64,000 nt of DNA from Phycisphaeraceae bacterium (lineage in GTDB: Bacteria > Planctomycetota > Phycisphaerae > Phycisphaerales > Zrk34): positions 1 through 64,000 of the forward strand of contig JANQHD010000004.1 of assembly GCA_028282805.1 (NCBI GenBank). Direction: 5' to 3'. How positions within the stretch are numbered: the first letter of the stretch is position 1; each line of letters starts with the position of its first letter. Positions 7,712 to 61,098 of the stretch are shown in pieces. The notes beneath the pieces are model-generated. The model searched no databases, was not told the origin of the DNA, and was given only the letters and a program-made list of their open reading frames with translations. Both the position numbers and the translations under genes were made by a program.

Positions 7712-8863
7712 TCACGCCTCGGTCGGCTGGTCGGCGTCGGCTTCGACGTCGATATCCGGCCCGGCCGGCGGTGCGCCCTCGGGGACGATGCCCTTGGCGA
7801 TCAGCACGTCGCGCTTGATCTGCTCGAACAGGTCCGGGTTGTCCTTGAGGAACTGCTTGGAGTTCTCCCGGCCCTGGCCCAGCCGCACCTCGCCGTAGCT
7901 GAACCACGCGCCCGACTTGTCGACCACCGCCTCGTTGACCGCCAGGTCCAACAGGTCGCCCGAGGCGCTGATGCCCTCGTTGAACATGATGTCGAACTCC
8001 GCGTCGCGGAACGGTGGCGCGACCTTGTTCTTCACCACGCGCGCCCGCACGCGGTTGCCCACCGCCTTGTCGCCGTCCTTGATCGAGCTGGTCCGGCGGA
8101 TGTCCAGGCGGATCGACGAGTAGAACTTCAGCGCCCGCCCGCCCGGCGTGGTCTCGGGGTTGCCGAACATCACGCCGATTTTTTCGCGCAACTGGTTGAT
8201 GAAGATCACCGTGCACTTGCTCTTGGCGATGGCGCTGGTCAGCTTGCGCAGCGCCTGGCTCATGAGCCGGGCCTGGAGGCCGACGTGGGTGTCGCCCATC
8301 TCGCCCTCGATCTCGGCGCGGGGGATCAGCGCCGCGACCGAATCGACCACGATCAAATCCACGGCGTTGGACCGCACCAACAACTCGCAAATTTCCAACG
8401 CCTGTTCGCCGGCGTCGGGCTGGCTGACGAGGAGGTTTTCGAGGTCGACGCCCAGCCGCTTGGCCCACGAGGGGTCGAGGGCGTGTTCCGCGTCGATGAA
8501 CGCCGCGACGCCGCCCTCTTTCTGGACATTGGACACGACGTGCAGGGCGAGGGTGGTCTTGCCGGAGGACTCGGGCCCGTAGAACTCGCAGACGCGTCCG
8601 CGTGGGATGCCGCGTCCGCCGAGGGCGAGGTCGAGGCTGATCGACCCGGTCTGGATGCCCGGGGGGATGTTGGACGGGTCGTCGTCGAGGCGCATGATCG
8701 AGCCTTTGCCGAAGGCGCGTTCGATCTGCGTGACCGCGCGGTCGAGTGCCGCTTCCCGCCCGTCGGCGGCGTTGGATTTCGAGCCGTTACCCTTGGCCAT
8801 GGCCGTACCCCTGCCGTTCTTAGGTGCTGATTTAGAACCGATTTTTGTCGCTGTGGCTACCAT
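7712..8863 (-). CDS. recA: Recombinase RecA
   Basis: A 383-residue DNA strand-exchange ATPase that also triggers LexA self-cleavage in the SOS response. Walker A GPESSGKT is at residues 96-103 and Walker B-like [16 protein letters not shown] follows; the DNA-binding loop region [17 protein letters not shown] is intact. The start at 8863 (MVATATK) has a good Shine-Dalgarno AGGAG 7 bp upstream; the longer open frame reaches through the promoter. Compared with E. coli RecA there is a basic N-terminal extension of about 30 residues; an internal ATG at codon 22 could give a shorter form. The gene is monocistronic, with its own promoter and terminator. Confidence 0.98.
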
Positions 8864-8930: not shown

Positions 8931-8992
8931 GCGCAAGTATGAACTTTACGCAACCTTTTTCACAGATGATTGAACGTGGTGCCGGGGCGGTG

Positions 8993-9187
8993 TCACTCGG
9001 CGGGGGTCTGCTCGTCGTCTGATTCGGGCTCTCCGCCCTCTTTTTCCGGGGCGTCGGGGTCGGGCCAGCCGTCCTCGGGGCGTGGGCGGTCCATCGCCTT
9101 CTTCACGGCGTCTTCCCAATCGCCGTCGAGCTTGAGGCGCTCTTCTTCCGGCCCTGGTTTCGATTTGTCGTCCTTGGGGTCGTCCAT
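8993..9187 (-). CDS. Small acidic hypothetical protein
   Basis: A 64-residue, very hydrophilic protein dominated by D, E, K and P, with one recognisable block GDWEDAVKKAMDRPRP in the middle. No signal peptide or membrane segment. I do not recognise a characterised family; short proteins with a DWEDA-KKA block seem familiar from planctomycetes, but that is a memory I cannot verify. It reads toward recA and ends about 60 bp before the recA promoter. On its upstream side the broken transposase frame stops 16 bp before its start codon, so the insertion sequence may have separated it from its original promoter. Confidence 0.55.
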   Translation of the reverse strand: MDDPKDDKSKPGPEEERLKLDGDWEDAVKKAMDRPRPEDGWPDPDAPEKEGGEPESDDEQTPAE

Positions 9188-9202
9188 GACCTGATTATAC
9201 CC

Positions 9203-10192
9203 TCACGCGGTCAGGGGATCGCGGTACGTCAGTCGTTTGCCAACCGCCCCCTGTATGGCCATCACGGTTCGCTCCCCGTCCTCCATCTCCCGGCTGTTGT
9301 AGCGGAACTCGAACTCATCGACGTAGCGTTACAGGTGCTTGCGGCTGACGTTGTGGTACACACCGAAGATGCCCCGCTTGAGGATGGAGAAGAAGCCCTC
9401 GATCGTGTTGGTCGTCACGTCGCCCCGCACGTACTCGCCGAGCGCGTGCTTGACGTGGCGGTGGCTGGCGTACTGACGACCGATGCGGAAGTACGGGCGA
9501 AGCTCATCGGTGACGAGGTGCGCCGACTTGTCGACCAGCTCGTTTACCGCTTGTTTTAAGGTCTCTGCTTTCACGTCGGGGATCACGCGCACCTTGACCT
9601 GCCCGGTCTCACGGGCGACGGTCGCGAGCACGGGCTGCTTGCTGCTGATGCCGCGTTTGTTGCGCTTCGTTGTGCCCTTGATCCAGCGGCGACGGCCACG
9701 GGGCTTGCCGCCGACATAGGTTTCGTCGACCTCGACGGTGCCGGTCAGTTTGTCGCCATCATCGTTGATTGGACTCATGGCGAAGCGGATGCGGTGCATG
9801 AGGAACAAGGCCGACTTATACGACAGACCGGTGTGCCGCTTGATCTCCAACGCCGAGACGCCCTTCTTCGACGTGCAGGCACGCCAGAACGCATAGGCCC
9901 AATGGCGGAGCGGGATACGGCTGTCCTCCAGCACCGTTCCGATGCGCACGGTGTATTGCTTTTTGCACTCCCGGCATCGCCACAGATAGCGGGCGTTCCG
10001 CTCGCCGGTCTTGGCCGATTTCATCTGGTAGACGTTCTCGCTCTGGCAATGGGCGCAGCAGGGCTTGTCACCCCAGCGCTGGCGCTCGAAGAACTCCACC
10101 GCGGCTTGCTCGTTCGCACAAGCCAGTGGAATGCTGGCAACAGTCTCGCTCTTGTCCTGTCCAACTTTGGTTTTCTCGCCTTTTTGGGCCAT
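9203..10192 (-). pseudogene. IS1595-family transposase interrupted by an in-frame TAA
   Basis: The first 287 residues (down to 9329) show an N-terminal zinc ribbon (CAHC at 46-49, CREC at 73-76) and a DDE nuclease core: D156 in VEVDETYVGG, D229 in VTDELRPY, E265 in NTIEGFFSILKRG. This is the IS1595/ISXO2 architecture. After SRKHL comes TAA (9329-9331), and the same frame continues RYVDEFEFRYNSRE to a TGA at 9203-9205. That is the usual C-terminal block of the family, so one nonsense change cut off about 41 residues. The whole catalytic triad lies before the stop, so residual activity is possible. Strong promoter, good Shine-Dalgarno (GAAAGGGG). I found no convincing terminal inverted repeats. 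Confidence 0.88.
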
Positions 10193-10213
10193 CGCTTGCC
10201 CCTTTCACGAATT

Positions 10214-10241
10214 ATTATACATGACGCAATTACTAGGTCAA
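10214..10241 (-). promoter_or_regulatory. Promoter of the IS1595 transposase
   Basis: On the minus strand TTGACC (-35) and a perfect TATAAT (-10) are 16 bp apart, 22 bp before the ATG, in DNA that is markedly AT-rich for this window. The best promoter match seen here. Confidence 0.7.
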
Positions 10242-10307
10242 GATAATACTGATAATCCTTGATTTTAGCGATTAAATGTGTGTTGATAATACGGATTGGA
10301 ATATTTA

Positions 10308-10336
10308 TTGACGATGGGCTGTCGGTCTGATAGTTT
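10308..10336 (+). promoter_or_regulatory. Candidate promoter of the 10378-12207 gene pair
   Basis: TTGACG (-35, 10308-10313) and TAGTTT (-10, 10331-10336) with a 17-bp spacer, 41 bp before the first ATG of the pair, in an AT-rich intergenic stretch. Confidence 0.45.
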
Positions 10337-10377
10337 ATGAGGCGGCGGAACACACCCAACTGTCAGGAACGACGAAC

Positions 10378-11082
10378 ATGGTAACCGAAACCCCCGTCTT
10401 GGAAGTTCTTAGCCCTGTGCTGCGACACCTAGCGCAGAACTGGCTGGACTCAAAGGCCGAGTTTGACGCGCGGCACTCCGATGCCGACCAGCTTGAACTT
10501 GGCCCCACCCATCGCGCGCTCTTCATCCAAAAGAAGACCTTGGCGCGTTGCCGGGCTGACGAACACATCATGTCTGTGCTGCGTCCAGCGCACAAACTCG
10601 GACTGCACTTTCTTGAATACTATGGCCAGGACGCGGACCTTGCCGTGCTTTTCAAGAAACTGCGCTACTGGAATGACGCGCTTCGGTCTGACGGCATCAC
10701 GACTCTTCAGCGCTCCGACCGCCTGTGTGGTCAGTTGGTCCTGAATGGTCGTAGCCTCGTACCGATCGTGTGCGGTTACACGCTATCCGAAAACATGGCC
10801 GGCTTGGCTACGATCGATCACATCTACATTGGGCTTGAAACCCATCAGGGCTTTGAGTGGGCTCATCGGATATGGTCGCTCGACCAAGGTTTCATGGTGC
10901 CACATCCCGAAGAACAGCAGCCGCTATTCCCGCAGGCGCTGGTCAAGATTCGCCGCCCGGACACCACGGTGGCAGAAGACTTGTCGAACAAGGTTGGCGT
11001 CGACTCGGAACGAAAGCGCATCCAAATGTCGCGTGATCGCGAACGAGATGCCGATACGAAGTCGATGGGCGACGGCGCGTGA
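10378..11082 (+). CDS. Hypothetical protein, partner of the XRE-ImmA gene
   Basis: A 234-residue soluble protein with no signal peptide or membrane segment. I do not recognise the family. Visible segments: an N-terminal helical stretch (LSPVLRHLAQNWLDSKAEFD), a central part with a two-cysteine region (CGQLVLNGRSLVPIVCG), and a charged, probably disordered C-terminus rich in R, D and E. The gene is 27 bp upstream of the XRE/ImmA-IrrE gene on the same strand and behind a shared promoter candidate, so the two are probably co-transcribed. Base composition is lower in GC than the core genes nearby, and it sits beside an insertion sequence; both suggest acquired DNA. Confidence 0.75.
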   Translation: MVTETPVLEVLSPVLRHLAQNWLDSKAEFDARHSDADQLELGPTHRALFIQKKTLARCRADEHIMSVLRPAHKLGLHFLEYYGQDADLAVLFKKLRYWNDALRSDGITTLQRSDRLCGQLVLNGRSLVPIVCGYTLSENMAGLATIDHIYIGLETHQGFEWAHRIWSLDQGFMVPHPEEQQPLFPQALVKIRRPDTTVAEDLSNKVGVDSERKRIQMSRDRERDADTKSMGDGA

Positions 11083-11109
11083 ATAGTCTCTTAGCGGTTT
11101 GGGTTCAAC

Positions 11110-12207
11110 ATGAAAAGACCAGTAAATACAGACATGATTGTTCTTGCGCGCGATTCACGCGGGTGGCTACAAAAAGAACTCGCAAAAAAAATCGGCGTGT
11201 CACAAGCAAAAATTTCTAAGTACGAAAACGGCTTGCTTTTGGTTTCTGACGAAGACCTAAATGCGATAGCCGCAGAAACCGGATACACAAGAGAGTTCTT
11301 CTTTTGTACTGACCCGATATACGGTCTCGGCAGTAGTTTGTTGTTCAACCGTAAGAAAAAAACTGCGCCGATAGGAAAGCAGCGGGAAGTACAAGCAAAA
11401 GTAAACATTGCCAGAATGCAGGTTGAGCGATTTCTTAGATCAGCGGAAATTGAATCGCTGAATCAATTCGAGGCGATTGATTCGCAAGACTTTGATGGCG
11501 ATGCGTCCGAGGTTGCACGGCGAGTTCGTGCTGGCTGGCGCATGCCCATGGGACCCATCCAGAGCGTGACAACGGCAATTGAATCTGCCGGTGGTGTGGT
11601 CTTACTCTGCGACTTCAATACAACCGACATTGATGCCGCGCATCTATGGGTGCCTGGCGGTCCGCCACTGTTTTGCATGAACAAGCACAGGTCGGGTGAT
11701 CGTCACAGGTTCAATCTTGCTCATGAGCTTGGTCACGCGGTCATGCACCAGTTCCCTGCTGGCGACATAGAACAGGAGGCAAACACATTTGCCGCCGAGT
11801 TTCTGATGCCCGCAAGAGAAATCTCAGAAGAACTGCACGACTTGACCCTTGAAAAACTTGCAGGGCTTAAGCAGAGGTGGCGGGTGTCAATGGCTGCACT
11901 TGTTTATCGCGCCAAAGAATTGGGATGCATCAGCAACTCAAAATACACATCGCTTTTCGCAACACTGGGCAGACTTGGGTATAGGCTGGCCGAGCCGATC
12001 GAGATAGCAATTGAACAGCCATCACTGATATACCAACTCATAGACATTCATCGAAGAGGGCTCGGGTACACCGACGGCGATCTTCTTGAATTGCTCATGA
12101 CTGATGAGCCTGACTTCATCGATGCATGTGCCAAAATAAAGCGCCCGCTAAGAATCAATGATGCGCCCATTCCGTTTGAAACACATTTGAAACGGCGTCA
12201 GGCGTAG
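11110..12207 (+). CDS. XRE-family HTH regulator fused to an ImmA/IrrE zinc peptidase domain
   Basis: A 365-residue two-domain protein. Residues about 8-62 form a Cro/C1-type helix-turn-helix (RGWLQKELAKKIGVSQAKISKYENG). Residues about 165-260 form the ImmA/IrrE (DUF955) domain with the zinc motif HELGH at 205-209 and the downstream acidic residues in EQEANTFAAEFLMP. In known relatives (ImmA of ICEBs1, IrrE/DdrO systems) the peptidase cleaves a repressor. Here both functions are in one chain, as in many mobile-element and toxin-antitoxin-like modules. AT-rich codons (AAA, ATT, AAT) differ sharply from the neighbours and indicate horizontal transfer. Confidence 0.9.
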   Translation: MKRPVNTDMIVLARDSRGWLQKELAKKIGVSQAKISKYENGLLLVSDEDLNAIAAETGYTREFFFCTDPIYGLGSSLLFNRKKKTAPIGKQREVQAKVNIARMQVERFLRSAEIESLNQFEAIDSQDFDGDASEVARRVRAGWRMPMGPIQSVTTAIESAGGVVLLCDFNTTDIDAAHLWVPGGPPLFCMNKHRSGDRHRFNLAHELGHAVMHQFPAGDIEQEANTFAAEFLMPAREISEELHDLTLEKLAGLKQRWRVSMAALVYRAKELGCISNSKYTSLFATLGRLGYRLAEPIEIAIEQPSLIYQLIDIHRRGLGYTDGDLLELLMTDEPDFIDACAKIKRPLRINDAPIPFETHLKRRQA

Positions 12208-12211
12208 AAAT

Positions 12212-12234
12212 TAAAAACCCGCCTAGCGGCGGGT
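12212..12234 (-). terminator. Rho-independent terminator for minus-strand transcripts
   Basis: The hairpin ACCCGCC-TAGC-GGCGGGT (12217-12234) is followed on the minus strand by TTTTTAA. It would end transcription from the membrane-protein genes at 12330-13068, whose RNA runs antisense through the tRNA gene. On the plus strand it is a tail hairpin 9 bp after the ImmA-type gene, without a T tract. Confidence 0.65.
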
Positions 12235-12238
12235 GGTG

Positions 12239-12323
12239 GCTCCCGTGGCGAAACCGGTAAACGCAACCCCTTTGGGTGGGGCGATCCGGGCAGGATTTGC
12301 GGGTTCGAGTCCCGCCGGGAGCA
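12239..12323 (+). tRNA. Leucine-type class II tRNA with a UGG (proline) anticodon
   Basis: An 85-nt gene folding as a complete class II cloverleaf. The acceptor stem GCTCCCG/CGGGAGC is perfect, with discriminator A. The D arm is of leucine type (TGGCG-AAACCGGTAAA-CGC). The anticodon stem is CCCC/GGGG with an A-C mismatch at 27-43 and loop TTTGGGT, giving anticodon TGG (12273-12275) followed by G37. A long variable arm (stem ATCC/GGAT) and a perfect T stem GCGGG/CCCGC with loop TTCGAGT complete it. CCA is not encoded. LeuRS does not read the anticodon in known bacteria, so this tRNA could be charged with leucine and decode proline codons. It might also be a decaying gene. It lies in the accessory island beside the ImmA-type gene. 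Confidence 0.85.
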
Positions 12324-12329
12324 ATTTGA

Positions 12330-12521
12330 TTACTCGGTGTTGTCCACACGCCCAAAAAACGGGATGTGGCGGAGAAACGCTTGCATGAAATCGGGGTCTT
12401 TTTGGGCCGACTTATTGATGCTCGCGTTTGTCTGTTCCGTTTCCGCTGCCACTTGGCGCAACAATTCCTTCACCGTTTGGCGATCCGTTTTCGGTTGATG
12501 TTGCTGCGTTGTCGTCGCCAT
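12330..12521 (-). CDS. Small hydrophilic hypothetical protein overlapping the upstream membrane gene
   Basis: A 63-residue protein rich in Q, T and K, with a predicted helical middle (TVKELLRQVAAETEQTN) and no membrane segment. It starts at 12521 inside the 3' end of the 12412-13068 gene, in another frame, with a Shine-Dalgarno-like GATGGAG 8 bp upstream; the overlap is 110 bp. It ends 6 bp from the tRNA gene. The overlap and ribosome site suggest coupled translation with the membrane protein. I do not recognise it, and an overlapping small frame in a GC-mixed region could be chance. Confidence 0.45.
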   Translation of the reverse strand: MATTTQQHQPKTDRQTVKELLRQVAAETEQTNASINKSAQKDPDFMQAFLRHIPFFGRVDNTE

Positions 12522-13068
12522 TGCTTGTTACTCCATCGGATATTTTAGCCGGAATACTGGCCACAAGGTAGGTCAAAATCGCGATAAAAATGAAGCTAAC
12601 GCCGATAACATACCAAGACTGGCCCCTTTTAAGCCTGAACCACATCTCATTGTTGCGTCGTTTTAACTCAAGGTAGGCCCTGTATGTCTTTCCAAACACC
12701 ATTTGCCGTGTGGGTTTTCCGAGGTCGCTTTGCGTCACTTCCATGACTTCTAGCGCGGTGCCCCTACTGGCGTAGCCCTTCGGCCTCAAATAAATGACCG
12801 ACAAGGACCGGCCAATTGCGCCAACCGCAGCGATCAGAACGATGTGGAGTGCGATGGTGACCGCTGGGTGCAGCATTGGCGCGCTCGTTGTCGAGTACCG
12901 CCATGCAAAGCTGAAAAACCCAAGCCCCAAAACACCAAGCCCACCAGCCGTAAGTATCTGGCTGCGTCGAGCTATCCGGGCCGCGTTTTCACACTCAGAC
13001 ATCCACAGCCGATTGGCATGGTCAATAAGGACTTCCAAGCTCGATCTTCTGTCGTGATCGCCCGGCAT
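12412..13068 (-). CDS. Hypothetical three-helix membrane protein
   Basis: A 218-residue protein with hydrophobic segments at about residues 38-56 (ILTAGGLGVLGLGFFSFAW), 68-90 (VTIALHIVLIAAVGAIG) and 152-170 (WYVIGVSFIFIAILTYLVA). Between the second and third lies a soluble basic region of about 60 residues. The C-terminal 45 residues are low-complexity, rich in G, N, S and T. No family recognised. It lies alone on the minus strand at the right edge of the accessory island, and a terminator for it is present at 12212-12234. I see no clear Shine-Dalgarno at the chosen ATG. Confidence 0.7.
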   Translation of the reverse strand: MPGDHDRRSSLEVLIDHANRLWMSECENAARIARRSQILTAGGLGVLGLGFFSFAWRYSTTSAPMLHPAVTIALHIVLIAAVGAIGRSLSVIYLRPKGYASRGTALEVMEVTQSDLGKPTRQMVFGKTYRAYLELKRRNNEMWFRLKRGQSWYVIGVSFIFIAILTYLVASIPAKISDGVTSNGDDNAATSTENGSPNGEGIVAPSGSGNGTDKREHQ

Positions 13069-13269
13069 GGTGTGAATTAAACCCGCTCGTAATTCCTAGT
13101 GCAAACGATTGCCCCCCAACATAGAGGTGGCGAGCGCAGCGGCCCTGCGCGCCAGCGAGTCCGAACAATCAAAAACCTGATAATAACCCCAGGTTACTAT
13201 CACAAAGCTCCCTTGCGTCGAGTACACGCTCGCCTTTGAAAGGTGCCACAGCAGTGAGCGGCTTGGAGT

Positions 13270-13989
13270 TCAATTTGCCTGGGTCCGACGGCGTTGGTGC
13301 CGGACGATCTCCCACGGCAGGTAGATCAGCACGTGAACCAGCAACCCCAGCAGCATCATCCACACGACGCGCAGGGGGTAGGGGCCGAGGGCGTCGACGA
13401 GCGTGGTCGCTTCGGGCTTGGTCGGGCCGATGTAGAGGTAGTTCCAACCCGTGGCGCGGTTGAGGAAGAAGATGGCCGTGGCGTAAGCGGTCGTGAAGCC
13501 CACGGTGCGCAGCAGGTCGCGGCGGTCGGGCCGATACCCGCCGGCGATCAGCATGTACAGCGCAAGGAAGACGATGATGAAGTGGTTGATCCAGAACAGC
13601 CAGAAAAAGAACTCGCCGGGGTGTTGCTGGACGACGGGGGTGATGAAGCCTTGGGTGGTCAGGCCGATGCCCCAGAAGTAGAGGATGGCCAGCAGCGGGC
13701 GGTAACCGGTCAGCACCGCCACGGGCGCGATCAGGCCGACGATGTCACAGATCTGAAGGGGCAGGTACTTGCCCGGTTCTTCCAGGGCGTAGGCCCCGTA
13801 ACCGACGACGGTGAACAGCGTCGCGGCGAGCATGGTCCAACCCAGCGCCCGGCGGAACTTCGGTTCCGTGCCACGCGCCCGCAGGCGTCGGCCCCACCAG
13901 CAACAGGCCCACGTCGCGATCACCAGGAACGCGACCGCGGCGAGGTGGCCCGGCCGGTGCACGGCGAAGGTGAACACGACGTTCGGCAT
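13270..13989 (-). CDS. TIGR02206/YwaF-like integral membrane protein
   Basis: A 239-residue protein with about seven transmembrane helices and little soluble sequence. The motif set LPLQICDIVGLIAPVAVLTG, YFWGIGLTTQGFITP, FWLFWINHFIIVFLALYM and the C-terminal NRATGWNYLYI..PKP-like block match the TIGR02206/YwaF family, whose function is not established. It starts at 13989. The 200 bp beyond its end (13069-13269) hold no gene; one weak AACCTG/CAGGTT inverted repeat is seen near 13174-13195. Confidence 0.85.
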   Translation of the reverse strand: MPNVVFTFAVHRPGHLAAVAFLVIATWACCWWGRRLRARGTEPKFRRALGWTMLAATLFTVVGYGAYALEEPGKYLPLQICDIVGLIAPVAVLTGYRPLLAILYFWGIGLTTQGFITPVVQQHPGEFFFWLFWINHFIIVFLALYMLIAGGYRPDRRDLLRTVGFTTAYATAIFFLNRATGWNYLYIGPTKPEATTLVDALGPYPLRVVWMMLLGLLVHVLIYLPWEIVRHQRRRTQAN

Positions 13990-14003
13990 GAAGGCATGAT
14001 AGC

Positions 14004-14061
14004 GGATGAGCGATGAGCGATGAGTTCATAGCCACCGAGCCATCGAGCCACCCAGCCAACG
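14004..14061. repeat. Heptamer array (3 copies) next to an octamer array (4 copies)
   Basis: GGATGAG, CGATGAG, CGATGAG (14004-14024) are followed by AGCCACCG, AGCCATCG, AGCCACCC, AGCCAACG (14030-14061). The octamers are the same family as at 6147 and 39723. No inverted octamer arm follows; a second, shorter octamer run in the same direction lies at 14165-14188 (AGCCACCG, AGCCACCC, AGATCACG). Confidence 0.8.
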
Positions 14062-14102
14062 AGGTGCCTGGGGCGTCGGTCAAAACGAATCGCGGCGCAA
14101 CT

Positions 14103-14126
14103 ATTTAGCGACGGCCCTGCGGGCCG
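14103..14126 (+). repeat. REP-like element (ATTTAGCGAC head plus GC hairpin)
   Basis: ATTTAGCGA followed by the hairpin CGGCCC-TGC-GGGCCG. The ATTTAGCGAC head is the same as in the REPINs around the RAYT gene at 17528, so this is probably a solitary, diverged member. Confidence 0.7.
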
Positions 14127-14236
14127 TTTTCGACGCGTAGCGGCGACGTGAGCGATGAGATCGTAGCCACCGAGCCACCCAGATCACGCGAGGCCCGGTT
14201 GGCCATCCGGACCTGCGCTACGCTACGGTCCGGCTT

Positions 14237-14264
14237 GGAACTTAAAACCTGGAACCCGGAACTC
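14237..14264. repeat. Single arm of four heptamers (GGAACNN)
   Basis: GGAACTT, AAAACCT, GGAACCC, GGAACTC. It touches the stop codon of the Na/Pi transporter gene on the minus strand. No inverted partner arm was found nearby. Confidence 0.6.
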
Positions 14265-15966
14265 ACTCGCCCCACTGCGTGACGATGCGGCGGGCGATGC
14301 GTTTGGAGAAGTAATAGGTGCGCTTGAGCTGTTCGATGGCCTCGGTTTCCAGCCGATACGTCGACACGCGGTGCGGCGCGTCGGCGGCGAGGCGCTGGGT
14401 CAGGTGGGCGGACAGGGCGTCGACCGCGGCGTTGATCTCGGACTTGAAATCCACCACGCGCTGGGCGAGCTCGGCGTCTTTGCGGGCCAGCGCGTCGAGC
14501 GTCAGCTGCAACGCCTCGCGCACCCGGTCGGCCAAGGGGCGCGTTTTTTCGAGCGTCTGCGCGCTGATGGTCAGGCCCTTGCGCAGGCGCTGGCGGCCGA
14601 GCGCGACGATGTTGGTTTCGACCAGGTCGCCGATCGCTTCGAGGTCGTTGGCGATCGCGATCAGCGCGAGCAGTTCGCCGGTCTCTTCGTCGGTGAGTTG
14701 GTCCTGCTCGATCTTGCCGAGGTAGCGGACGATCTGTTTGTGCAGGGCGTCGATGTCGTCTTCGGTGCCGGCCAGCTCGTCGAGTTGTGGCTCGCTGCCG
14801 GCGAGGAAGACCTGGCGGGTGCGTGAGAACAGGCGCATGGTCAGCGCGCCGAGCCGGTTGAGCTCGAGGCCGACGCGGTCGAAGGCCAGGGCGGGCGTTT
14901 CGAGGTAGACCGCTTCGAGGTACTTCGCTTCGATCACCGCGGGCTGGGGCTCGGGGCGGTCGGGCGCGAGCTTGCGGGCGAGGTAGGCGATGGGCCCGGT
15001 GAAGGCGATGAGCAACAGCGTGTTGGCGATGTTGAACACGGTGTGCGCGTTGGCGATCTGGCGCGGGGTCTCGGCGGCGAGGCGGGCGGTGGCGTCGAGC
15101 GAGGCGTCGGCCGTGGGCGAGACGTGCCGCACGAACTCGGCGAGGTAACCGATCAGCGGCAGCCAGATGAGCACGCCGGCGACGTTGAACAGCACGTGCA
15201 CGATGGCGGCCTGTTTCGCGGGGCGGGGCTTGCCGAGGGTGGCGAGCATGGCGGTGGCGCACGTGCCGACGTTGGCGCCGAAGGCGAGGGCGATGCCGGC
15301 CTCGAGGGTGATGAACCCGCGCGAGGCGAGCACGATGATGATGCCGGTGGTGGCCGAGCTGCTCTGCACGAGGGCGGTGAACGCCGCGGCGACGGCGATG
15401 CCGAGCAGCGGGTTGGACATCTTCGCCATCAGGTCGATGAACGGGGGGAACGCGCGGAGCGGTTCGGTCGCTTCGCTCATCACGGTCATGCCGAAGAAGA
15501 CCAGGCCCAGGCCCATGACGGCCTGGCCGACCTGCTTGACGCGGACGTTGCGGGCGACAAACGAGGCGGCGAACCCGCCGGCGACCAGCAGCAGCGCGGC
15601 CTTGGTGACCTTGAAGGCGATGACCTGTGCGGTGACGGTGGTGCCGATGTTGGCGCCCATGATCACGCCCACCGACTGGCTGAGCGTCATCAGCCCCGCG
15701 CTGATGAAGCCGACCACGAGCACGGTGGTGACCGATGACGACTGGATGACCGCGGTGACGAACGCGCCGGTGAACGCCGCGACGAACCGGTTGCGTGTGA
15801 GCTTGCCGAGCAGGTTGCGCAGGCCCGGGCCGGCCACGGCCTTCAGCGCCTCGGTCATGATCTCCATGCCGAACAGGAACAGCGCCAGGCCGCCGGCCAT
15901 CTCGACCGCGAGTTTGACCCAATCGATCTCGGCGTTGGCCGCTGCGAGAAGTAACATCGGCGGCAT
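14263..15966 (-). CDS. Na+/phosphate cotransporter (NptA/PNaS type) with C-terminal PhoU-like domain
   Basis: A 567-residue protein. The N-terminal two thirds are membrane helices with the two inverted family signatures: TAVIQSSSVTTVLVVGF with MGANIGTTVTAQ, and TALVQSSSATTGIIIVLASRG with FGANVGTCATA. These QSSS repeats define Na/Pi cotransporters. Residues about 370-567 are helical and PhoU-like (LIAIANDLEAIGDLVETNIVALGRQ). It likely imports phosphate with sodium at the inner membrane. Start 15966 (MPPMLLLAAANAE) or 15957; the frame stays open for another 770 bp but that covers the divergent uxaC gene. It is transcribed alone, divergently from uxaC. Confidence 0.92.
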   Translation of the reverse strand: MPPMLLLAAANAEIDWVKLAVEMAGGLALFLFGMEIMTEALKAVAGPGLRNLLGKLTRNRFVAAFTGAFVTAVIQSSSVTTVLVVGFISAGLMTLSQSVGVIMGANIGTTVTAQVIAFKVTKAALLLVAGGFAASFVARNVRVKQVGQAVMGLGLVFFGMTVMSEATEPLRAFPPFIDLMAKMSNPLLGIAVAAAFTALVQSSSATTGIIIVLASRGFITLEAGIALAFGANVGTCATAMLATLGKPRPAKQAAIVHVLFNVAGVLIWLPLIGYLAEFVRHVSPTADASLDATARLAAETPRQIANAHTVFNIANTLLLIAFTGPIAYLARKLAPDRPEPQPAVIEAKYLEAVYLETPALAFDRVGLELNRLGALTMRLFSRTRQVFLAGSEPQLDELAGTEDDIDALHKQIVRYLGKIEQDQLTDEETGELLALIAIANDLEAIGDLVETNIVALGRQRLRKGLTISAQTLEKTRPLADRVREALQLTLDALARKDAELAQRVVDFKSEINAAVDALSAHLTQRLAADAPHRVSTYRLETEAIEQLKRTYYFSKRIARRIVTQWGE

Positions 15967-16023
15967 TGTATCGCAAACCCGCGCGCAACCGGTATACTCA
16001 AACGCCCGTAGCGGAAGCGAAAC

Positions 16024-17442
16024 ATGAACTTCATTCACGACGACTTTCTGCTGAGCAACGAGGCGGCGCGCCGGCTGTACCACGAGCACGCGGCGGCCGT
16101 GCCGATCTACGACTACCACTGCCACCTGCCGCCGCGCGACCTGGCGGCCAACCGCTCGTTCAACGATTTGTACGAGCTGTGGCTCGAGGGCGACCACTAC
16201 AAGTGGCGCGCGATGCGCGCCAACGGCGTCGACGAGCGCTTCATCACCGGCGACGCCGAGCCGTTCGAGAAGTTCATGGCGTGGGCGAAGACCGTGCCGC
16301 ACACGCTGCGCAACCCGCTGTACCACTGGACGCACCTGGAGCTGCTGCGTTACTTCGGCATTGATGCGCCGCTCAACGAAGACACCGCCGAGGGCATCTG
16401 GCACGACGCCAACCGCCAGATCGCCGACCACGTCGACGTGCGGTGGGTGCTCGAGAAGTTCAACGTGGCGTTGATCGGCACCACCGACGACCCGGCCGAC
16501 GACCTGGCCGAGCACCGGGCGCTGGCGGAGGATCAACTTTATGAGGCCGCGGTGTACCCGGCGTTTCGGCCCGACCGCGTGTACGCCGCCGATGACACCG
16601 GGCGGTGGAACGGCTACATCGAACAGCTCGGCGAAGCGACGGGCGTGAACATCGACAGCCTCGAGGCGCTGCTCGATGCGCTGGGCAAGCGGCACGCGCA
16701 TTTTCACGAGACGGGCTCGCGCCTCTCGGACCACGGGTTGAGCTACCTGCCGGACGTCGAGTGCGACGACAAGCGGGCAAGCGCGATCGTCAAAAACGCG
16801 CTAAGCGGCAAGCCGCTGGACGCGCTCGAACAGCAACAGCTGACGGCGTACCTCATGCTCGAGCTCGGCGAGCTCGACGCCGACGCGGGGTGGGTCAAGC
16901 AGCTGCACCTCGGCGCGATGCGCAACACCAACCGGTGGGCGACGGCGAACCTCGGGCCCGACACGGGGTACGACTCGATCGGCGACTGGCCGCAGGCCGA
17001 GGGGTTGAAGCGTTACCTCGGCACGCTCGCGGGGCGCCAGAAGCTGCCGAAGACGGTTCTGTACAACCTCAACCCGGCGGACAACTACGTGTTCGCCACC
17101 ATGATCGGCAATTACCAGGACGGTCAAACACCCGGCAAGGTGCAGCTCGGCTCGGGCTGGTGGTTCTGCGACCAGCTCGAAGCGATGCGGTGGCAGATCG
17201 ACGCGCTGTCGAACCTCGGGTTGCTCAGCCGGTTCGTGGGCATGCTGACCGACTCGCGCTCGTTTATGAGTTACCCCCGCCACGAGTACTTCCGCCGGCT
17301 GCTGTGCGACGTGCTCGGCCGCGACGTCGAGGCGGGGTTGCTGCCGAACGACATGGGCATGTTGGGGGCGCTGGTTGAAAACATTTCGTTCAACAACGCG
17401 CGCGGTTATTTTGCCATGTCACTACGGGGTAAGTTTGCATAA
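16024..17442 (+). CDS. uxaC: Uronate (glucuronate/galacturonate) isomerase
   Basis: A 472-residue amidohydrolase-superfamily enzyme that interconverts D-glucuronate/fructuronate and D-galacturonate/tagaturonate, the first step of uronate catabolism. The N-terminal metal motif HCH is in PIYDYHCHLPPRDL (H32, H34). Later diagnostic segments are QLHLGAMRNTNRW and FVGMLTDSRSFMSYPRHEYFRRLLCD. Length is as expected for UxaC (about 470). A TATACT -10-like element lies 25 bp before the ATG. No other uronate genes follow, so this is an isolated catabolic gene; the next downstream feature is the REPIN-RAYT unit, starting 2 bp after the stop. Confidence 0.96.
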   Translation: MNFIHDDFLLSNEAARRLYHEHAAAVPIYDYHCHLPPRDLAANRSFNDLYELWLEGDHYKWRAMRANGVDERFITGDAEPFEKFMAWAKTVPHTLRNPLYHWTHLELLRYFGIDAPLNEDTAEGIWHDANRQIADHVDVRWVLEKFNVALIGTTDDPADDLAEHRALAEDQLYEAAVYPAFRPDRVYAADDTGRWNGYIEQLGEATGVNIDSLEALLDALGKRHAHFHETGSRLSDHGLSYLPDVECDDKRASAIVKNALSGKPLDALEQQQLTAYLMLELGELDADAGWVKQLHLGAMRNTNRWATANLGPDTGYDSIGDWPQAEGLKRYLGTLAGRQKLPKTVLYNLNPADNYVFATMIGNYQDGQTPGKVQLGSGWWFCDQLEAMRWQIDALSNLGLLSRFVGMLTDSRSFMSYPRHEYFRRLLCDVLGRDVEAGLLPNDMGMLGALVENISFNNARGYFAMSLRGKFA

Positions 17443-17443
17443 T

Positions 17444-17495
17444 ATTTAGCGACGCGACTGTGTCGCGTTTACGCGGCAGAGCCGCGTCGCTAAAT
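17444..17495. repeat. REPIN, left copy flanking the RAYT gene
   Basis: A 52-bp element bounded by a 13-bp inverted repeat (ATTTAGCGACGCG/CGCGTCGCTAAAT) with two inner hairpins, CGCGAC-TGT-GTCGCG and CGCGGC-AGA-GCCGCG, separated by TTTA. It starts 2 bp after the uxaC stop. It differs from the right copy (18125-18176) at one base (A for G in the second hairpin loop). Confidence 0.93.
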
Positions 17496-17527
17496 GGGCG
17501 CGCCGCGGATGGGCGTGGCGCCAACAC

Positions 17528-18130
17528 ATGGGGGACGTTCCGGTGATCCGTGGGTTTCACTTCATATTCACGGCGTACGGGTTCTGGCTGCCGAACGACC
17601 CGCGCGGGTCGTGGTCGACCACCATCCGCAAGTGGGAGCTGCTGCGTTACGGCGAAGCGACCAAGACCGACGCACGCCACTCGCTCGCCGAACAAGTGCA
17701 CGACTACCACAAGCGGATCGCCGCCAAGCGGTTGTTGAAATACCCGCCCGTGCACTTCACGGGTGCACAGGCGCGGGCGATCGCGCTGGGTTTCAAGCGG
17801 GCCGCGGAAGAAGGTGAATACGTCGTGCACGCGCTGGCGGTGCTGCCCGAGCACACGCACCTGGTCATGGCGCGCCACGAACGGCACGTCGACCAGATCG
17901 CGTCGCACCTCAAGGCCAAGGCGACCCGCCAGCTGAGCGCGGCGGGGTTACACCCCCTGGCGCCGCACAAACCCGACGACCCGCCCTCGCCGTGGGCCCG
18001 TGGCAAGTGGTGCGTGTTTATTAACGATGAAAGCCAGGTGCGGGCGGCGATCGAATACACCGAGAAAAACCCCGAAAAAGAGGGCAAACCCCGCCAATAC
18101 TGGACGTTCATCACACCGCGCGACATTTAG
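17528..18130 (+). CDS. REP-associated tyrosine transposase (RAYT, IS200/Y1-like)
   Basis: A 200-residue member of the Y1 HUH nuclease superfamily. The N-terminal strand GFHFIFTAYGFWLPNDPRGSW and the HUH-type segment HALAVLPEHTHLVMARH (HTH, both histidines present) are typical of RAYTs. Candidate catalytic tyrosines are in the C-terminal helix (IEYTEKNPEKEGKPRQYW). RAYTs cut and join single-stranded REP hairpins and are linked to REP spread. It is exactly framed by two near-identical REPINs, and its stop codon TAG is supplied by the right one. No terminal repeats like those of a true insertion sequence are seen, matching the single-copy, domesticated nature of RAYTs. Confidence 0.93.
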   Translation: MGDVPVIRGFHFIFTAYGFWLPNDPRGSWSTTIRKWELLRYGEATKTDARHSLAEQVHDYHKRIAAKRLLKYPPVHFTGAQARAIALGFKRAAEEGEYVVHALAVLPEHTHLVMARHERHVDQIASHLKAKATRQLSAAGLHPLAPHKPDDPPSPWARGKWCVFINDESQVRAAIEYTEKNPEKEGKPRQYWTFITPRDI

Positions 18131-60696: not shown

Positions 60697-61092
60697 GTGC
60701 GTGGCGGAGGTGACCGCCGGGCCGGCGCGAGTCGGCCGGGAGGAAAGTCCGAGCACGGCAGGACACGGTGGTGGGTAACGCCCACCCGGCGACCTGGCGA
60801 CGGGCCGCCGCGGGACAGTGCCACAGAAAGCAAACCGCCGATGGCCCGAAAGGGCACAGGCAAGGGTGAAAAGGTGCGGTAAGAGCGCACCGCCGCGCGG
60901 GCGACCGTGCGGGCACGGTAAACCCCACCGCGTGCAAGACCAAGCAGCGATGCGCCGCACGGCGCGGCTGGTCCGGCCGTCCCTACGGGGAGCATCGCGG
61001 GTAGGTTGCTCGAGCCCGTCGGCAACGGCGGGCCTAGATGAATGGTCACCCCCCGCTTGCGGGGAACAGAACTCGGCTTACGAGCCACGCAC
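60697..61092 (+). ncRNA. rnpB: RNase P RNA, bacterial class A
   Basis: The catalytic RNA that matures tRNA 5' ends. P1 is formed by GTGCGTGGC (60697-60705) and GCCACGCAC (61084-61092). The universally conserved blocks are present in order: GAGGAAAGTCCGAGC near the 5' end, ACAGAAAGCAAACCGCC, the AAGGGTGAAAAGGTGCGGTA region, GTGCAAGACCAAGCAG, and ACAGAACTCGGCTTACGA near the 3' end. Length of about 396 nt fits class A. A terminator follows at once. Divergent from the Gfo/Idh-like gene. Confidence 0.96.
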
Positions 61093-61098
61093 CGCACA

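Follow-up and report, generated by a model that had tools for sequence, protein, structure and literature searches.

IS1595-family transposons from a wide range of bacterial phyla have, to judge from the sequences collected here, a tRNA with a leucine-type body and the proline anticodon UGG as standard cargo, and the codon that matches this anticodon, CCA, occupies fixed places in the transposase of the elements that carry it. We think it probable that this is a private tRNA-Leu(UGG) with which the transposon recodes, or dopes, CCA in its own genes, so that tRNA and transposase form a regulatory link. We know of no transposon whose tRNA changes the meaning of a sense codon in the element's own transposase, and the full text of open papers that was searched held nothing comparable.

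A leucine-type tRNA with a proline anticodon

The tRNA gene lies on the forward strand at 12239-12323 of the window, the whole stretch of 64,000 nt that was analysed. ARAGORN calls exactly this interval as tRNA-Pro(TGG), and the Rfam model RF00005 scores it at 49.9 bits, the gathering score being 29. The acceptor stem is paired in seven of seven positions and the T stem in five of five, the sole mispair is A27-C43, and the 3' CCA is not encoded. The leucine-type features are the D arm TGGCGAAACCGGTAAACGC, A14 and A15 with U48, a variable arm of 15-16 nt and A73. In bacteria leucine identity has been placed in A73, tertiary core contacts, A20a and the large variable region, with the anticodon excluded, and proline identity in G35, G36 and A73 plus G72 and G15:C48 (PMC9976931). 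The window tRNA has the A73, large variable region and core (A14, A15:U48) of a bacterial tRNA-Leu but not its anticodon, which is UGG instead of NAG or YAA; it shares G35, G36 and A73 with tRNA-Pro but has C72 and A15:U48 in place of G72 and G15:C48. An earlier sequence-only reading had described leucine identity elements (long variable arm, D arm, A73) together with a UGG anticodon, and ARAGORN, Rfam and the identity positions agree with it. As the leucine-type core and A73 are both there, the host LeuRS should charge this tRNA with leucine, and its match to the published bacterial determinants makes leucine the residue that should be expected at CCA. Annotation by anticodon alone files such mismatched tRNAs as tRNA-Pro, which should serve as a warning.

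The near-perfect fold, also described in that reading, is not a product of chance, as tRNAs with the same anticodon recur in related genomes, unrelated phyla and viral contigs, and their stems covary. UGG tRNAs 75-87% identical to that of the window were found in four related genomes by a DNA search of 61, and a pattern scan returned 31 UGG loci, 23 of them from a set of 84,980 species genomes and the other 8 from viral contigs, so that the further copies which the earlier reading had proposed to look for do exist. The phyla represented are Planctomycetota, Acidobacteriota, Gemmatimonadota, Chloroflexota, Verrucomicrobiota, Myxococcota and Proteobacteria, and nearly all of the sequences come from metagenome-assembled genomes or from viral contigs. 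Across 28 aligned copies 99.1% of stem cells are paired, both partners vary in 18 of 20 stem pairs and covariation scores 0.715 compared with 0.178 in shuffles, a pattern that points to bodies diverging through compensatory changes with the anticodon kept. The anticodon bases are invariant in this alignment, the copies of which were mostly collected by that very anticodon; the unbiased test is the transposase-led scan described below, and it likewise returned mostly UGG. ARAGORN did not call several tRNAs whose variable arm is very long (L167, L181, L184, L194 and L220); these were recovered with Rfam or by direct reading.

The element in the window

The tRNA sits inside an element of 4303 bp at 8932-13234. 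When a weight matrix of element ends was run over the 64 kb, the two best matches were 8932 and, inverted, 13234, and the next unrelated site scored 4.6. The left terminal inverted repeat, CGCAAGTATGAACTTTACGCAA (8932-8953, forward strand), was also found by pattern match and scores 29.9; the right one, GGCGAGCGTGTACTCGACGCAA on the reverse strand (13213-13234), is diverged and scores 14.9. The element has a G+C content of 55% against 65-67% in its flanks, which do not match each other as a target duplication. Its transposase (9212-10192, reverse strand) is 66% identical to that of a relative, L046, which matches both PF12762 (DDE_Tnp_IS1595) and PF12760 (Zn_ribbon_IS1595), and it has CCA at codon 22 (10127-10129) and codon 141 (9770-9772). 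Because this transposase carries an in-frame TAA at 9329-9331 (codon 288) the window copy is probably inactive, and with its target duplication gone as well the element is decayed.

The other genes of the element are a small acidic protein of 64 aa with a PGP...GWP motif (8993-9187, reverse strand), which recurs in at least eight elements and in the window has CCA at one proline of the PGP motif, and three passengers: a gene of 234 aa that has no Pfam match (10378-11082, forward strand), a gene with HTH and ImmA/IrrE-type peptidase domains (11110-12207, forward strand) and a probable membrane protein of 218 aa (12412-13068, reverse strand). The ImmA-type gene that had been noted beside the tRNA is real (HTH_3 and Peptidase_M78 in Pfam), and tblastn finds its relatives in L044, L045, L063 and L074; as a constant partner of the tRNA it does not hold up, being a variable passenger in the place of which other elements have different genes, such as P63C in G003 or a GAF-domain gene in L047.

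The tRNA as transposon cargo

UGG tRNAs occur next to IS1595-type elements or within them in Planctomycetota, Acidobacteriota, Gemmatimonadota, Verrucomicrobiota, Myxococcota and Proteobacteria as well as in viral contigs. Inverted repeats of the type CGGAAGTATGTACTTNACGCAA, mostly clean, flank the tRNA and the transposase together, and about a dozen copies have 8-bp target duplications, for example TTTATGTT in L043, AAAACCAG in L044, ATTTTTAT in L046, AAAGAAAA in L078 and TCTTTCCT in L088. Of the 31 UGG tRNAs found by pattern, 18 have an IS1595 transposase no more than about 3 kb away; for some others (L065, L071, L072, L084, L085, L090 and L091) none is within reach in the sequence at hand. 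A search led by the transposase through 201 genomes of the order found 15 copies of the window clade, 12 of which have a class II tRNA: UGG in ten (the window itself in G000, and G045, G003, G198, G172, G029, G002, G026, G185 and G016), a leucine-type UUA tRNA in one and a serine-type UAG tRNA in one, with no tRNA found in the remaining three. Further copies carry leucine-type bodies with the anticodons AGG (L184) or UGC (L216, L218). The idea of a selfish-element tRNA, raised from the letters of the window, is therefore borne out, in that the tRNA belongs to an IS1595-family transposon as a conserved component and lies inside its inverted repeats. Plasmid and phage collections gave only distant IS1595 relatives, with no tRNA at the four plasmid loci inspected.

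Several other tRNAs of unusual type were seen in these elements. Serine-type tRNAs with foreign anticodons occur in elements of the same family (L168 5134-5228, UAG; L181 7225-7314, CGC), the two leucine-type tRNAs with the alanine anticodon UGC lie within inverted repeats (L216 6348-6432; L218 2732-2818), and a second, irregular tRNA-like sequence is found next to the UUA tRNA of L047 (6030-6096).

CCA codons in the transposase

Codon 22 is CCA in all 20 transposases of UGG elements compared with three of eight in other elements (Fisher p = 0.0006). CCA makes up around a quarter of the remaining proline codons in UGG-element transposases and around 8% of proline codons in those host genes of the window that were sampled. 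At five other conserved proline columns it is found in 5 of 98 cases in UGG elements and 9 of 68 in the others, a between-group depletion that is suggestive only (Fisher p = 0.09). When proline codons were shuffled within each gene of the UGG elements, the fixation at codon 22 and the depletion elsewhere were each matched in 0 of 20,000 shuffles; the same shuffles of non-UGG elements were not significant. Two further places behave as codon 22 does: in the loop before the VExDE strand, the first catalytic one, UGG elements have 23 CCA against 2 other proline codons (1 against 6 in non-UGG elements), and a C-terminal column is CCA in 11 of 14 UGG elements and 0 of 4 others. There is no fixed DNA motif at codon 22, since the third base of the adjoining codons varies freely.

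Among elements with another tRNA or none, codon 22 is CCC in L184 (AGG tRNA) and CCG in L047 (UUA tRNA), which has CCA at two other proline positions, and in L165 and L219, which have no tRNA; it is CCA in L168, L186 and the decayed L166 despite no UGG tRNA being detected there. These non-UGG copies are scattered among UGG copies on the transposase tree, the end branches of which are long (median 0.43 changes per site) and therefore enough to randomise silent bases. The plain reading of these counts is that CCA would not be purely proline in cells that make the transposase of a UGG element, true prolines avoiding it and a few sites demanding it. The coupling in the small protein comes from eight copies only. 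CCA at conserved leucine columns of element genes was considered and was not seen as a rule, single cases being found at an aliphatic column in L083 and L220. The use of GCA in two UGC elements gave no clear signal, except that L218 has GCA where L220, which has a UGG tRNA, has CCA.

AlphaFold, in a model of the L046 transposase with a pLDDT of 79.5, places codon 22 inside the N-terminal helix 16-26, where a leucine would sit well among L17, V18 and L21 on the hydrophobic side. The second CCA site comes just after helix 124-138, near a domain boundary, and the third lies in the disordered C-terminal tail, positions which in this model favour a tolerated or desired leucine. Foldseek returned weak integrase-like matches only.

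Proposed mechanism and alternatives

We propose that the host LeuRS charges the element tRNA with leucine and that its UGG anticodon pairs with CCA, a codon that the element would set at fixed sites of its transposase (codon 22, which lies in the N-terminal helix, the loop leading into the first catalytic strand, and the C-terminal tail), and probably in the small PGP/GWP protein too, and would keep off the other conserved prolines of the transposase. On expression of the element a share of the transposase would then carry leucine instead of proline at these sites, which would tie the activity of the enzyme to the tRNA of the same element, and damage to the host would stay small because CCA is rare in GC-rich hosts. 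Such recoding would be a new route of self-control for a mobile element and a naturally occurring, portable form of local recoding of a sense codon, and would explain the recurrence of tRNAs with mismatched identity and anticodon in environmental bacteria.

As to what the coupling is for, one tentative possibility, to which we give something over a third of our belief at most, is that CCA is meant as leucine and that the transposase works properly only after the element's own tRNA has been produced and has taken part in translation; other codons would serve in the same manner in sister elements that have UGC, AGG or UUA tRNAs, and the genetic code itself would be the lock on transposition. Copies that have no matching tRNA retain proline at codon 22 by third-base changes and have not shifted to a leucine codon, although one C-to-T change would give one, and this speaks against a simple or strict need for leucine.

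The same retention fits a somewhat unlikely alternative in which the enzyme works with proline at codon 22 and leucine supplied by the tRNA gives an impaired or dominant-negative transposase, so that a newly arrived element, still lacking the tRNA, would jump and transposition would be damped as the tRNA accumulates. Every motif-bearing non-UGG relative keeps proline at codon 22, five of the eight as CCG, CCC or CCT, and L047 combines CCG there with perfect ends and a target duplication; a tRNA that acts in trans according to dosage would also suit copy-number control. However, such an effect would belong at structural prolines, which is where CCA is depleted (the 5 of 98 above), and the loop and C-terminal sites accept many residues, so that leucine would do little harm there.

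It would seem very unlikely that ProRS charges the tRNA with proline and that it merely adds CCA decoding capacity for the element or its host. G35, G36 and A73 are ProRS determinants and no ordinary tRNA-Pro(UGG) was seen in the host assembly, but ProRS also uses G72 and G15:C48, and G72 is present in only 2 of the 28 aligned copies, with A15:U48 in place of the latter pair; furthermore most of the aligned copies (more than half) have A at position 37, relatives that bear the element do have an ordinary tRNA-Pro(UGG), and proline charging leaves the depletion of CCA at conserved prolines unexplained. We find it just as improbable that the tRNA is a mistranslation factor, as the sequence-only reading had suggested, or a stress device, with host proteins in general as its target. 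A leucine-charged tRNA(UGG) would indeed hit host CCA codons too, for example at a conserved proline of RecA, but CCA is a small part of proline codons in the sampled host genes (the 8% above), and the constant linkage to a transposase, with the codon placed at fixed positions of that very enzyme, points to a self-directed role. Also very unlikely is a passive hitch-hiker or insertion landmark, with the codon pattern due to another cause such as translational pausing at CCA. The three CCA sites are in the N-terminal helix, close to a domain boundary and at the C-terminus, where a pause could matter, but the pattern is confined to elements with a UGG tRNA and shifts with the anticodon, and the tRNA lies inside the inverted repeats, travels across phyla with the element and has compensatory stem changes.

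Relation to known systems

The proposed private tRNA-Leu(UGG) has a close parallel in phage suppressor tRNAs with recoded stop codons (code 15, crAss-like phages), for which a role in timing has been proposed (PMC9523058, PMC10607447); there too a mobile element has its own tRNA and the matching codon in its own genes, and special use of that codon in the element's genes, as expected of an element-encoded recoding tRNA, is found here. It differs from phage recoding in that the codon is a sense codon, CCA, the element a small transposon, the targets a few fixed sites of one enzyme and the tRNA body class II and of leucine type. The tRNA-ProX/ProRSx system of Streptomyces (commentary PMC10365949) also joins the body and anticodon of different amino acids, with mistranslation of a sense codon expected, whereas the pairing here is the opposite one (leucine body, proline anticodon), is borne by a transposon across many phyla, and comes with neither a proline-type body nor an adjacent ProRS variant, no synthetase being present among the genes of the window element. 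Allo-tRNAs (PMC7609411) are likewise unusual tRNAs that resemble class II and vary in anticodon, some of them suggested to occur alongside transposable elements, but have an 8+4 or 9+3 acceptor branch; the window tRNA has a normal 7-bp acceptor and 5-bp T stem, leucine determinants and a close tie to an IS1595 transposase and its codons. IS1595-family transposons with passengers have the same PF12762 and PF12760 domains (here seen through L046), inverted ends as in the window, 8-bp duplications as in many relatives of the window copy, and varied passengers, and the elements described here are set apart from them by the tRNA, since no description of a tRNA passenger in this family was found in the literature searched.

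Host tRNA genes and neighbouring genes

Replacement of a lost tRNA-Pro(UGG) was considered as a general explanation for the element tRNA and rejected, as G003, G029 and G045 carry both. A covariance-model search of G000, the assembly of the window, found the other expected tRNAs and not an ordinary tRNA-Pro(UGG), and the sensor gene that neighbours it in relatives was not found there either, which fits an assembly gap and a loss alike. A conserved proline of RecA is encoded by CCA, so proline must remain a possible reading of this codon. Around 31 tRNA genes, including a tRNA-Pro with the anticodon AGG, are packed into 7 kb of contig C25 of G000 (10413-17628, L048 and L049), and G045 has a similar cluster.

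An RNase P class A RNA gene is found in the window at 60697-61096 (Rfam). The end of the window element at 8932 is near the start of recA at 8863, and other elements likewise lie around 70-100 bp upstream of gene starts (L046 6681-6782, L047 6597-6683 and L045 10355-10427). Three elements are upstream of SOS genes, recA twice, in different families, and recN once, as if such promoters were targeted.
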